Virus record (IMG/VR): IMGVR_UViG_3300025168_000235
Location: 1-37,492 of that record
DNA length: 37,492 nt
Reading direction: 5' to 3' (one strand)
Source of the DNA: a virus
The notes under the pieces: model-generated
Told to the model about the DNA's origin: nothing
The model's input: only the letters and a program-made list of their open reading frames with translations
The model's database searches: none
Program-made: the position numbers and the translations under genes
In this document: piece by piece, positions 1 to 37,492 of the stretch
Numbering within the stretch: the stretch's first letter is position 1
Layout of the letters: each line of letters begins with the position of its first letter

Positions 1-457
1 TACCCTTCAGGGTAATTCCACCTCCGTCTGCTGTTGTATCCGTAGGAGAAGCAACCTTCCCCATTTCAATGTTCTTGTCCTCTACAGTTAAAGTCTGAGT
101 ATTAACTATTGTCTCAGTACCATTGACTGTGAGGTTGCCAGACATGATGACATTACCTGTGAACGTGCCACCTGTTGCAGGGACTGTATCTGCTGGACTG
201 AAGGTTGACAGGGCAATCACCTCAACGACATCACTTGCTGTTAGTGCTGACAGACCTGTGATGGTGCTTCCGTTAGTTGCAATGCAGTCAGTACCTACGA
301 CTAGCTTGACTCCGTTTAGGTAAACTGAGACTTGATTTTCGGTATAGCCTAATGAAAGACCATCGTCATCTGCTGTGATTGTAGTCTCACCACCGCTTGC
401 CGTGAAGATAAACCTCTCTGCTTGCCCTTGTCCGGGTTCCTGTCCTATGTATGCCAT
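1..457 (-). CDS. Tail fibre, N-terminal part (third fibre of the array; cut by window edge)
   Basis: The reading frame is open from an ATG at 457 to the window edge, giving 152 residues with no stop. It begins MAYIGQEPGQGQAER, then a beta-rich, Thr/Gly/Ser-rich region. Near the cut end is the motif VNGTETIVNTQTLTVEDKN, typical of fibres and host-receptor proteins of marine phages. The N-terminal part probably anchors to the tail. The receptor-binding C-terminus is missing. It is the third fibre in transcription order of a cassette array (fibre at 1753-2676, fibre at 786-1439, this one), each followed by a short partner gene. Its own partner is most likely the partial gene at 37204-37492, across the contig break. 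Confidence 0.75.
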   Translation of the reverse strand, partial: MAYIGQEPGQGQAERFIFTASGGETTITADDDGLSLGYTENQVSVYLNGVKLVVGTDCIATNGSTITGLSALTASDVVEVIALSTFSPADTVPATGGTFTGNVIMSGNLTVNGTETIVNTQTLTVEDKNIEMGKVASPTDTTADGGGITLKG

Positions 458-469
458 GTTTTCAGTTAG

Positions 470-784
470 TTAGGGTTTTGGATACTTAGCTTTAATTGGA
501 TCGACCATTTCTGATTTCCACTTGGCTAGGCCATCGTCATAAATTTTATTGAGCTGCGTACCCCAATCTGGGTATTCGTCTTGTCTTGCTCTGGAATATG
601 CTAATGAATCGTACTCAGCTTGCATTGAAATTACTTTAGCATCTATGTCTGCTTTAAGAGGTGGTGTCTGTCCATCATGATATATTGTATTTGAACCATC
701 TGAAGAACCACTAATTTGCCCTCCTACTAATGCTGTAATTGCATCACCTCGTCTAACTTTTCCGTCTTTACCTAAAGTTACCAT
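470..784 (-). CDS. Short fibre-partner protein B (104 aa), possible tail-fibre assembly chaperone
   Basis: This 104-residue protein has a polar N-terminal half and a C-terminal half with the pattern EYDSLAYSRARQDEYP, ending KAKYPKP. The same C-terminal pattern (EYDxxAYxRxRxxEYP, about 35 residues, then KxKYPK) recurs in the genes at 1443-1751 and 37204-37492. The three are therefore paralogs. Each sits directly downstream of a fibre gene, which resembles the arrangement of fibre and assembly-chaperone genes in other phages. That role is inferred from position only. No catalytic motif, signal peptide or membrane segment is visible. It is translated in tandem with the fibre ending at 786. Confidence 0.7.
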   Translation of the reverse strand: MVTLGKDGKVRRGDAITALVGGQISGSSDGSNTIYHDGQTPPLKADIDAKVISMQAEYDSLAYSRARQDEYPDWGTQLNKIYDDGLAKWKSEMVDPIKAKYPKP

Positions 785-785
785 A

Positions 786-1439
786 TTATCCTTTTATTTC
801 TTGTGCTATTATTGTTGATCCTCCATTTGCCCCAGAACCAATATAAAAATTTCCTGAACCGCTATTTCGCAAAGAAGGTCTATAAGAAACAACCACACCA
901 TTCACATTAGGAGAATCTAAGTAGCTGTATGAAACTATATATCTACCCGAAGCAGAAGAAACACGATTTTGCCCAAAACCCTCACCAGTAAGAGAATTAG
1001 ATATAATAAATTGAACAGTTGCTCCTCCAGCTATAGAACGATAAAAGTCTGCACATCCATGTGTGCCAGTAGCTGAAAATTCTGCTTCCCATGAAGTTGA
1101 TACAAGTATATAATTACTTGAGGAAGAAGGAGTTATTTGTACCTCTAAATCAGACCCCATTGGAGTATTAAAATTACCACTTGTTGTGTGGGCTTCACTC
1201 TTATGAACATCTTGAACAGTTTGTAGTATATGTCCGACTGGAAATGTTGTTGCACTTGTGATAGCACCTCCTGCTATTGAACCAGCAGTCACAGTCCCAA
1301 CATTGTTTGCTGTTCCAGACAGGGTTGCATTCTCTGCAAATGTCGTTGTACCAGTTGCTCCAACTGTTATAGCCGGTGAAGCATCTGACCCCTGCAAAAC
1401 TAAATTATCTGCTGAGGATTTTATTATTAAGTTTGCCAT
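786..1439 (-). CDS. Tail fibre B (217 aa)
   Basis: The N-terminal 60 residues are low-complexity and repetitive (GSDASPAITVGATGTTTFAE, then SGTANN), a style typical of trimeric fibre shafts. The C-terminal domain starts near FPVGHILQTVQDVHKS, continues through GSDLEVQITPSSSSN and ends IIAQEIKG. The same domain closes the fibre at 1753-2676 (FPSGHVIETVTDTHVS, GSDLQVTITPTSTSN, TVQEIKA), so the two are paralogous over about 150 residues. Its likely role is host recognition at the virion surface. It starts at an ATG four bases after the upstream partner gene and is followed two bases later by its own small partner. Confidence 0.75.
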   Translation of the reverse strand: MANLIIKSSADNLVLQGSDASPAITVGATGTTTFAENATLSGTANNVGTVTAGSIAGGAITSATTFPVGHILQTVQDVHKSEAHTTSGNFNTPMGSDLEVQITPSSSSNYILVSTSWEAEFSATGTHGCADFYRSIAGGATVQFIISNSLTGEGFGQNRVSSASGRYIVSYSYLDSPNVNGVVVSYRPSLRNSGSGNFYIGSGANGGSTIIAQEIKG

Positions 1440-1442
1440 AAG

Positions 1443-1751
1443 TTATCCTCCTTTTGGATATTTAGTTTTAATCTCTGCACGTTTGGCCTGAAGTGCATCG
1501 AGGGTATCGTCCAAAATCGCATGGACACATTCTTGTAAAGAGGGGTATTCTGCTTCACGTTTTCTTGAATAGGCTTGAGCATCGTATTTTACTAATAACT
1601 CAACAAGTTTTTTTTGAATTGCTTCTTCAGTTGGAGGTGTCTGCTCATCGAATAGTCTTATTTTAGATATTGGGCCTTCAGAATATCCACCTACTTCCCC
1701 TCCGACTAAACTTTCTACTGCATTAATGTATTTAGGTTTATCTAATTCCAT
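1443..1751 (-). CDS. Short fibre-partner protein A (102 aa), possible tail-fibre assembly chaperone
   Basis: A 102-residue soluble protein with the family signature KYDAQAYSRKREAEYPSL near residue 58 and a C-terminal KTKYPKGG. It is a paralog of the products of 470-784 and 37204-37492. The N-terminal halves share the pattern (A)xxxLVGGxxxGxSxG and TPP near residue 40 with the 470-784 product. It lies between fibre A (ends 1753) and fibre B (starts 1439) with spacings of 1-3 bp, so the pairs are almost certainly co-translated. A fibre-folding role is inferred from gene order. It could equally be a minor virion protein. Confidence 0.7.
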   Translation of the reverse strand: MELDKPKYINAVESLVGGEVGGYSEGPISKIRLFDEQTPPTEEAIQKKLVELLVKYDAQAYSRKREAEYPSLQECVHAILDDTLDALQAKRAEIKTKYPKGG

Positions 1752-1752
1752 A

Positions 1753-2676
1753 TTAAGCCTTTATTTCCTGTACGGTTAAAGAACCAACACTAAAAGCGGT
1801 ATTACTACTGTTTGCAAAACAGTTATAACTGCCATTTATTGCTCTAAACCATGGGCGTATTTTTATTGAAGTTGTAGCCGGAGCATTAACCACCGTGTGA
1901 TAAAATAAATGTGATAATAAAGCTGTGGCAGCTCCGAAATAGTTATAGTGATCACTAATAAATTCTCTTTCACCTAAAATAGTTCCATCAGTTCCAGAAA
2001 AATTTGCATGGTAACGAAACCCAGCATGAAGTCCTGCATTTGTGGTTGCGTTATTATAAAGGCCCGGTATAAAACAACTTATTAATAGTTTATTACTTGT
2101 TGAAGTAGGTGTAATAGTAACTTGTAAATCACTCCCTAAAACATCGGCTCCTGTTGTTGTTACCTGAATAGAAGCATTAGAAACATGGGTGTCAGTCACA
2201 GTTTCTATCACATGACCACTAGGGAACGTAGCATTTCCAAGATTAAGATTTGGACTACCAGTAACAACACTACCCAAAACACCTGTCATATCTGTCAGGC
2301 TAGTTCTATGTGTATCCTGTAAAACATTGCCAGCCTCAAGTGTACCTGAACCTGTTATTGTTCTTTCTGTACTGTCCTGAGTAATTACTATGTCTTCATC
2401 GGCTATTGATCCTAGTGCTAAGTGTCCTGTTACGTTTACATCTCCTGTCAGTTGGTATGAATCGTTGAAATACAACCTCTCTGTAGAGTATGTGCCAGAA
2501 AGGGTTTGGGTTGATGTATTGTTCTCAAGATAAACCACATCACTTGTGACTGCTCCAGCAGGTATCTTTGCAGCCGTTACATTATCATCAACAATCTTAG
2601 CTGTCGTTATGCTATTGTCAGGTATGTCTGCCGATGTTAAGGCTGCTGCCCCACCTCGTCTTCCTAAGTATGCCAT
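1753..2676 (-). CDS. Tail fibre A (307 aa)
   Basis: The start MAYLGRRGGAAALTSADIPD is followed by repeats of the ITTAKIVDDNVTAAKIP type, which are common in phage fibres just after the attachment peptide. A beta-rich shaft follows, then a C-terminal domain (about residues 150-307) homologous to that of the 786-1439 product: FPSGH, GSDLQVTITP and a terminal QEIKA. Several aromatic and Asn/His-rich stretches (HYNYFGAA, YNCFANSSN) lie in this head domain, where receptor contact would be expected. It is the first fibre of the cassette array and is followed by partner protein A after one base. Confidence 0.75.
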   Translation of the reverse strand: MAYLGRRGGAAALTSADIPDNSITTAKIVDDNVTAAKIPAGAVTSDVVYLENNTSTQTLSGTYSTERLYFNDSYQLTGDVNVTGHLALGSIADEDIVITQDSTERTITGSGTLEAGNVLQDTHRTSLTDMTGVLGSVVTGSPNLNLGNATFPSGHVIETVTDTHVSNASIQVTTTGADVLGSDLQVTITPTSTSNKLLISCFIPGLYNNATTNAGLHAGFRYHANFSGTDGTILGEREFISDHYNYFGAATALLSHLFYHTVVNAPATTSIKIRPWFRAINGSYNCFANSSNTAFSVGSLTVQEIKA

Positions 2677-2684
2677 CTATTCTC

Positions 2685-3029
2685 CTATGTTATATCGAGC
2701 ATTGACATGACTACATCGGCACTCGTTGCCGTGTTGCTTTTCACTTGGATTACATCTCCAGTGTCCAACACCACTTTTTGATCACCTCCGACAACCACTA
2801 AAGCACCTCCTGTTGGAATCGGGGCATCTTTAACTAGATACGTCCTTGTAGAACCATTTAAAATAACAACATTTACAGAGATTACTGAACTAACTGTATT
2901 TGCTACTGTCAGTCCTATGATTGCTCGTTGCTGGGAACCTACTGCTGAACCTATAGATGACCATCCTAAAGTTACATCCGCATTAGTCGTTACGTTTCTA
3001 ACTTGTTCATTTAAAAATGTATTTGCCAT
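2685..3029 (-). CDS. Small conserved virion protein (114 aa)
   Basis: An all-beta-looking protein: MANTFLNEQVRNVTTNADVT, then alternating hydrophobic strands around residues 35-75 and a closing segment with DTGDVIQVKSNT. Proteins of this size and style occur in the tail regions of many environmental phages beside fibre genes, without a known function. There is no catalytic motif, membrane segment or coiled coil. It lies in the run of tightly packed tail genes between the degenerate cupredoxin-like gene and fibre A. A minor tail or fibre-decorating role is inferred from context alone. Confidence 0.6.
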   Translation of the reverse strand: MANTFLNEQVRNVTTNADVTLGWSSIGSAVGSQQRAIIGLTVANTVSSVISVNVVILNGSTRTYLVKDAPIPTGGALVVVGGDQKVVLDTGDVIQVKSNTATSADVVMSMLDIT

Positions 3030-36686: not shown

Positions 36687-36859
36687 CAGAGATTACTGCT
36701 TAAAGTTTTATTTTTTTGTTTGTTAGTTTGGTTTGCACGTTCAAAATCCTCTAACCTGTCTGCTTGGTCGGATTCTTTTCTCCATTTTTCAATAATGAAG
36801 TGGTCATCATCATCTGGTAGTGTCAAAAAATCTATAAACCTCCCAATAAATTTAACCAT
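36686..36859 (-). CDS. Small charged protein of the lysis cassette (57 aa)
   Basis: The ATG at 36859 lies inside the end of the holin-like gene (8-bp overlap). The product has an amphipathic start MVKFIGRFIDFLTLPDDDDH, then a hydrophilic helix (EKWRKESDQADRLEDFERAN). No membrane span or known family is seen. Tight overlaps on both sides are the main reason to believe it is expressed. Confidence 0.5.
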   Translation of the reverse strand: MVKFIGRFIDFLTLPDDDDHFIIEKWRKESDQADRLEDFERANQTNKQKNKTLSSNL

Positions 36860-37136
36860 TTTTTACCCGATCCATTTCCTCTTCATGCTCATGGTCTTTT
36901 TTCTCACGAAACCAATAATCCGTACTTTTTGCAAGGACAGCAACGTATGCTCCAACAAGGATATTAACCAAGTCACGAGATGTCTCCTTGATGTCCGCAT
37001 AGAATAGTAGGTACAGAAGCACCAGAAACGTAATCGAATTAGCAACCGAAATAATAAATCTTGCCCAGAAATTAAGTAACTTTCGGTTTTCCAGTGCATT
37101 ACCTGCTCCCCCAAATAGTGACTTGTGGACTTTCAT
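36852..37136 (-). CDS. Holin candidate with two membrane segments (94 aa)
   Basis: Two hydrophobic segments are visible: ARFIISVANSITFLVLLYLL (about residues 25-44) and LVNILVGAYVAVLAKSTDYW (about 56-75), separated by a short charged loop. The C-terminus is highly charged (REKKDHEHEEEMDRVKNG), typical of class II holins. The 'GAYVAVL.K.TDYWF' motif recurs in marine phage holin-like proteins as I recall them. It is the first gene of the lysis cassette, about 67 bp after the last fibre-partner gene. Confidence 0.65.
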   Translation of the reverse strand: MKVHKSLFGGAGNALENRKLLNFWARFIISVANSITFLVLLYLLFYADIKETSRDLVNILVGAYVAVLAKSTDYWFREKKDHEHEEEMDRVKNG

Positions 37137-37203: not shown

Positions 37204-37492
37204 TTATGGTTTTGGGTACTTCAGTTTTACTGCGGCTCTCTTAGCTTCAACGGCTGATTTATCGTCTGTGTCGTAGAGTGCTACTGTCAACTCAAGTAGA
37301 CTTGGGTATTCTGCTTGCCTGTTTCTGGCATAGGCTTGGGCATCGTATTCAGTTTGGAGACGAGTTATTTCTGCTGTTAATTCAGATTCCGTAAATACTA
37401 ATTCCTTGCCGGGTGTTAAGTCTATTGATGAAAATATATTTTCTTTCCAACCTGCAACTGCTTTATTTGTATCTAAATTAACTAATGCGGTT
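37204..37492 (-). CDS. Short fibre-partner protein C (C-terminal 96 residues; cut by window edge)
   Basis: The frame is open from the window edge to TAA at 37204. The visible part carries the family pattern EYDAQAYARNRQAEYPSLLE and ends KLKYPKP, so it is a paralog of the products of 470-784 and 1443-1751. The start codon lies outside the window. Directly joining 37492 to 1 would place a stop just upstream of this frame, so real sequence is missing between the ends. Its fibre is most probably the truncated gene at 1-457. Confidence 0.7.
   Translation of the reverse strand, partial: TALVNLDTNKAVAGWKENIFSSIDLTPGKELVFTESELTAEITRLQTEYDAQAYARNRQAEYPSLLELTVALYDTDDKSAVEAKRAAVKLKYPKP

Follow-up and report, generated by a model that had tools for sequence, protein, structure and literature searches.

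What do the small open reading frames that follow the tail-fibre genes of virus record IMGVR_UViG_3300025168_000235 do? The window, by which we mean the whole 37,492-nucleotide stretch analysed, is a linear contig of a marine phage, and all genes discussed here lie on its minus strand. In transcription order its tail region reads fibre A, partner A, fibre B, partner B and fibre C, the last cut by the contig end. Fibre A (1753..2676, 307 aa) joins a MAYLGR-type anchor to a tip and has homologs in the same slot in L005, L006, L007 and L009 (L numbers denote loci used for comparison); the conserved 114-aa gene directly upstream (2685..3029) occupies the same place before slot-A fibres in relatives. 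Partner A (1443..1751, 102 aa) follows after a gap of 1 nt, as partner B (470..784, 104 aa) follows fibre B (786..1439, 217 aa). Fibre B consists of a MANLIIKSSAD anchor (1290..1439), 89-91% identical in nucleotides to those of L004 and L007, and a tip (786..1244) that is predicted to be TNF-like. An earlier note on this DNA had proposed a C-terminal domain common to fibres A and B, and this was borne out: the tip region of fibre A (1753..2226, from FPSGH to ..LTVQEIKA) resembles that of fibre B in its first part, with 51% identity over 53 aa of the tip motif (E = 1e-11). Scans of Pfam and NCBIfam gave no match above cut-off for fibres A-C.

A third cassette, made up of fibre C and, across the contig break, partner C, had also been read in the earlier note. 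Fibre C is present with its first 152 codons (2..457) and runs off one contig end; partner C (37204..37491, 95 aa, cut at its 5' end) lies at the other and is followed by a holin-like small protein (36852..37136), a small ORF and an M15 peptidase. The holin-like gene also comes after the last partner in L014, L021, L053 and L056. Closing the contig to a circle was rejected, since joining the ends yields no intact partner gene, and the third cassette was rejected on synteny in relatives. The gene that follows was a partner in 0/17 distinct fibre-C homologs where it was visible; in most it was of the MAIPSG/MAIARG/MPLPSG type. These homologs are mostly 135-230 aa long (one has 472 aa), with a typical end resembling QKGAFMQ..HQALxLGG. 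In L014, L056 and L165, the partner before the same holin homolog comes instead after a fibre of the MTRAR/MTKAR/MSRAR type. Taken together, the two synteny patterns make it very probable that the fibre of partner C is not fibre C but one that fell into the gap, probably of the MTRAR type; its absence here is probably explained by the contig being a linear fragment. Fibre-plus-partner cassettes thus stand for A and B (470-2676) and fall for the third pair, and the window very probably holds two complete cassettes and the partner of another one. A search by DNA pattern for contigs close to the end of the window turned up none. Both contig ends, positions 1 and 37492, lie inside a hypervariable host-recognition module, which is the likely reason for the assembly break. 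At L167:182-3385 and L173:5526-8719, an MTRAR-type fibre of ~880 aa is followed by a MFISHKSN gene (184-189 aa) and no partner.

That the three partners are paralogs, as had been claimed, is clear within the record: partner B as query finds partner A with E = 2e-15 and partner C with E = 1.6e-7. All three match the profile of phrog_9114 (E = 6.6e-17, 2.4e-16 and 1.8e-11), a family without annotated function, and YD..AY.R.R..EYP and K.KYPK are invariant in their alignment (n = 3). For the window partners, no Pfam or NCBIfam family scored above cut-off, and this includes, at the curated cut-offs, Phage_tail_APC (PF16778), Caudo_TAP / Tfa (PF02413) and XkdW (PF09636). Relatives do match two of these: PF16778 in L028, L043, L244, L040, L004 and phage S-B05, and PF09636 in L028:2527-2877, L085:2706-3035 and L244:6913-7275; PF02413 reached only E = 0.069 against L244:6913-7275, below cut-off. 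An AlphaFold2 model of partner B (pLDDT 91) predicts a two-domain protein of ~100 aa, more than half of it helical, in which a short helix and a β-hairpin (N-domain, 668..784) precede three C-terminal helices (C-domain, 470..667, carrying EYD..AY.R.R..EYP..KYPK). The corresponding N-domain of partner A (1641..1751) was delimited by an alignment-based cut at TPP, and its boundary is approximate. Partner profiles found zero relatives among PDB sequences, and a fold search of the PDB with the partner model gave zero matches at E <= 0.001; the single match at that threshold in a viral fold library was an uncharacterized P-SSP3 protein of the same family. The fibre B tip was modelled as a TNF-like jelly roll, in a fibre model of moderate quality (pLDDT 78) that matched TNF-like lectins and Pgp3 in Foldseek (E = 3e-5 to 1e-3), and the tip profile matches the tip of orf22 in PDB 9efk (E = 9e-24).

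The pairing of a fibre with a downstream partner extends far beyond the window. A profile built from the window partners and one built from the divergent partner of L107 converge on 273/276 homologs in 240 loci. The earlier note had named partners standing away from fibres as evidence that would count against its proposal; a same-strand ORF of >=60 aa ends within 60 nt upstream of 221 of the 237 non-identical partner homologs, a rate that is biased upwards because the loci were mostly fetched through partners. Eleven of the remaining 16 lie at contig edges, and the commonest fibre-partner gaps are +1, -4 and -1 nt. Counted from the fibre side, 25/194 tip ORFs in the same loci have no detected adjacent partner. 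Isolates were also searched by tip alone, with the 9efk orf22 tip as query, and seven were examined. In four of them (Limnohabitans phage DC33, Kolga, HTVC024P and MedDCM-OCT-S30-C28) the tip gene is immediately followed by a partner homolog. S-B05 has a Phage_tail_APC protein in that position, Melnitz has a partner after its second tip gene, and ctn9Y15 has neither type of protein downstream. Relatives found through TerL were mostly short contigs and carried a partner in 1/13. A scan of genome contigs returned two loci only, both phage-like gene arrays filed under MAGs. The cassette contigs L243 and L244, from Red Sea metagenomes, are filed under archaeal and Dehalococcoidia genomes and are probably misbinned phage DNA.

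A dedicated partner for every fibre, as the earlier note had it, describes cassettes A and B but is not a general rule. P-SSP7, S-WAM2 and Lederberg (L083, L087, L092) have several tip genes in a row and a single common partner. Cassette B has its closest relative in L004, where fibre A bears another tip and no partner follows it. Other arrangements were seen as well. At L028:2165-2877 and L043:2063-2770, one fibre is followed by two adjacent partner homologs, the first with a Phage_tail_APC C-domain and the second with an XkdW N-domain. At L051:659-1387 a partner (residues 2-96) lies in frame with a ..MEIAG-type tip within one ORF of 242 aa, behind which stands another partner; the ORF is either a fusion of natural origin or the result of a lost stop codon. 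Behind a fibre-B allele at L007:6940-7104, the partner is shortened by in-frame stops and may be decaying, or may reflect a sequence error.

Partners were cut at the TPP/KPT linker into N- and C-domains, and N-domains and tips were clustered separately. Across 203 non-identical cassettes, tip class and partner N class agree with an AMI of 0.63 (permuted maximum 0.07). The table of tips against N-domains is nearly diagonal, and small classes pair together: ..MEIAG-type tips occur with three N classes (N0, N3, N4) in 86/87 cases, ..FIRLGDT-type tips with the QWFGW class in 60/66 and ..FGGFKLIE-type tips with the XkdW-like class in 18/24. The match also holds inside single contigs. In 40 contigs with >=2 tip classes, partner classes predicted from other contigs were correct in 72/86 cases against 37.6 expected, with a maximum of 57 in 5000 within-contig permutations. 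With cassettes merged where tip and partner both reached 50% identity, the count was 63/72 against 36.0 expected (p = 1e-4). Under a stricter collapse, at >=60% identity in either tip or partner, only five contigs were left and the agreement (8/10, p = 0.13) was not significant; the overall AMI under this collapse was 0.46, against a permuted maximum of 0.22. Single comparisons agree with this picture. Between the cassettes B of the window and L004, nucleotide identity is 89% in the anchor, 61% in the tip, 67% in the partner N-domain and 84% in the partner C-domain, and the sister phage L107 has kept the fibre-A anchor while its tip and partner N-domain are both different. At the level of sequence classes, the front half of the partner is thus matched to the receptor-binding tip of its fibre, as would be expected of a folding chaperone.

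The rear half of the partner is exchangeable. Where the window partners have the KYPK C-domain, relatives may carry a KLKxLGL-type segment or Phage_tail_APC; the N-domains of KYPK-type and Phage_tail_APC-type partners align in hhalign with a probability of 96%, and in the third cassette of L244 a single protein has XkdW as its N-domain and Phage_tail_APC as its C-domain. We consider it likely that the partners are intermolecular tail-fibre chaperones (or transient tip caps) resembling gp25 of phage Pam3, whose N-domain is matched to the tip and whose helical oligomerization domain can be exchanged. Each cassette would then encode a short trimeric tail fibre, in which a conserved N-terminal anchor carries an exchangeable TNF/C1q-like tip for receptor binding, and the next gene would encode the intermolecular chaperone of that fibre. 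The N-terminal domain of the partner, the predicted short helix and β-hairpin, would recognize the tip of the preceding fibre, and the C-terminal helical domain, of KYPK type here, would oligomerize the chaperone and thereby keep three tips in register during folding. Afterwards the partner may be released or remain as a transient cap; binding, trimerization and release are put forward by analogy. The earlier suggestion of a fibre-specific assembly factor is in this way strengthened, by the matching of tip and partner N-domain, by the swap of the C-domain for Phage_tail_APC and by the Pam3-like two-domain layout that the model predicts.

The strongest competitor, which we nevertheless regard as unlikely, is that the partner is a virion component, either a small adhesin or a permanent tip cap that itself contacts the receptor, much as Mu Tfa or S16-type gp38 do. 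An N-domain that varies with the tip is what an adhesin would show, Mu Tfa stays on the virion, and V22 gp27 and A5 gp9 have been proposed as transient caps (PMC7289586, PMC10579305). However, Pam3 gp25 was undetected in virions (PMC9608196), the partner is a protein of only ~100 aa and more than half helical by prediction, and no partner-like chain was found in the PDB, including in 9efk, whose fibre carries this tip family (that phage may lack a partner).

For the matching itself, co-transfer of neighbouring DNA is the main alternative: tip and partner N-domain, being contiguous, could be swapped as a block between conserved flanks although the two proteins never interact. The succession of a conserved anchor, a variable tip plus N-domain and a conserved C-domain is indeed the product expected from recombination in conserved flanks. 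Two within-gene controls argue against this explanation. The fibre anchor and tip, neighbours in one gene, gave an AMI of 0.06-0.13 and the partner N- and C-domains 0.12-0.20, whereas tip and partner N-domain, compared in the same way across the gene border, gave 0.59-0.60; overall, the equally contiguous anchor and C-domain assort far more freely (AMI 0.05-0.23). Moreover, similar N-domain types occur with unrelated C-domains, Phage_tail_APC among them, and linkage alone leaves unexplained why a separate gene should carry a tip-specific domain. We therefore judge linkage as the sole cause to be improbable. That the small ORFs merely ride along with fibre genes in another role, for instance as a regulator or a lysis factor, could be argued from the holin/endolysin genes beside the last partner and from the missing Pfam matches in the window, but is very improbable given that partners stand behind fibres at varied genome positions in varied phage types and that related proteins carry curated tail-chaperone domains.

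The earlier note had invoked cassette duplication, with which the paralogy of the partners and the varying number of cassettes among relatives agree; allelic replacement of tip and partner N-domain at fixed slots is, however, at least as important. Having two or more tips would plausibly widen the choice of receptors and give a multi-receptor host range, as had been suggested. Extending the argument with somewhat less assurance, we favour a general scheme for marine tailed phages in which at least five tip classes each have their matched chaperone N class(es), anchors and at least three C-domains are freely combined, and blocks of tip and chaperone N-domain move across unrelated phages. Small unannotated ORFs of the phrog_9114 family are common beside the tail fibres of pelagiphages, cyanophages and OM43 phages. 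Read as tip-matched chaperones, they would give phrog_9114 a function, allow receptor-binding tips to be located and classed from sequence, explain how tip modules are swapped without loss of foldability and show which partner should be co-expressed when folded fibres are wanted.

The closest parallel among known systems is Pam3 gp24-gp25, where the chaperone gene adjoins the fibre gene. The variable N-domain of gp25 binds the TNF-like fibre tip and its helical C-domain trimerizes (PMC9608196). The window partners likewise lie immediately downstream of their fibres and combine a variable, fibre-matched N-terminal domain with a conserved or generic helical C-terminal domain; the tip of the client fibre B is TNF-like by predicted model only. 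They differ in size (95-104 aa vs 162 aa for gp25), in the N-domain (a predicted helix and β-hairpin vs a β-sandwich), in the KYPK-type C-domain and in the tandem cassettes, and searches of the PDB with the partners gave no sequence match and no fold match at E <= 0.001. Phage_tail_APC proteins (PF16778; the PHROG tail fibre assembly families phrog_4912, 8746 and 4697) take the same place behind the same tip families, and in L028, L043, L244 and S-B05 this domain is joined to related N-domains; the window partners have the KYPK C-domain instead. XkdW (PF09636; from PBSX, NMR structure 2hg7) supplies one N class, paired with FGGFKLIE-type tips; the window partners belong to other N classes. In Sam46/Sam112, mutation of the C-terminal helix of an XkdW-like protein encoded beside tail genes changes the plaque type (PMC8190038), and XkdW, C1q-like and tail-fibre-assembly genes are listed in variable host-recognition islands of marine phages (PMC3909814). 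V22 gp26/gp27 and A5 gp8/gp9 are marine examples of a fibre with a downstream intermolecular chaperone, here a β-hairpin with a helical body (PMC7289586, PMC10579305). The V22 and A5 chaperones are larger (195-240 aa) and come as a single cassette, in contrast to the ~100-aa partners and tandem cassettes of the window. More than one fibre-chaperone pair in a genome is also found in Mu and P1, whose S-U and S'-U' fibre-Tfa pairs are switched by an invertible segment. The cassettes of the window would accordingly be an unannotated version of an already known kind of fibre-chaperone system.
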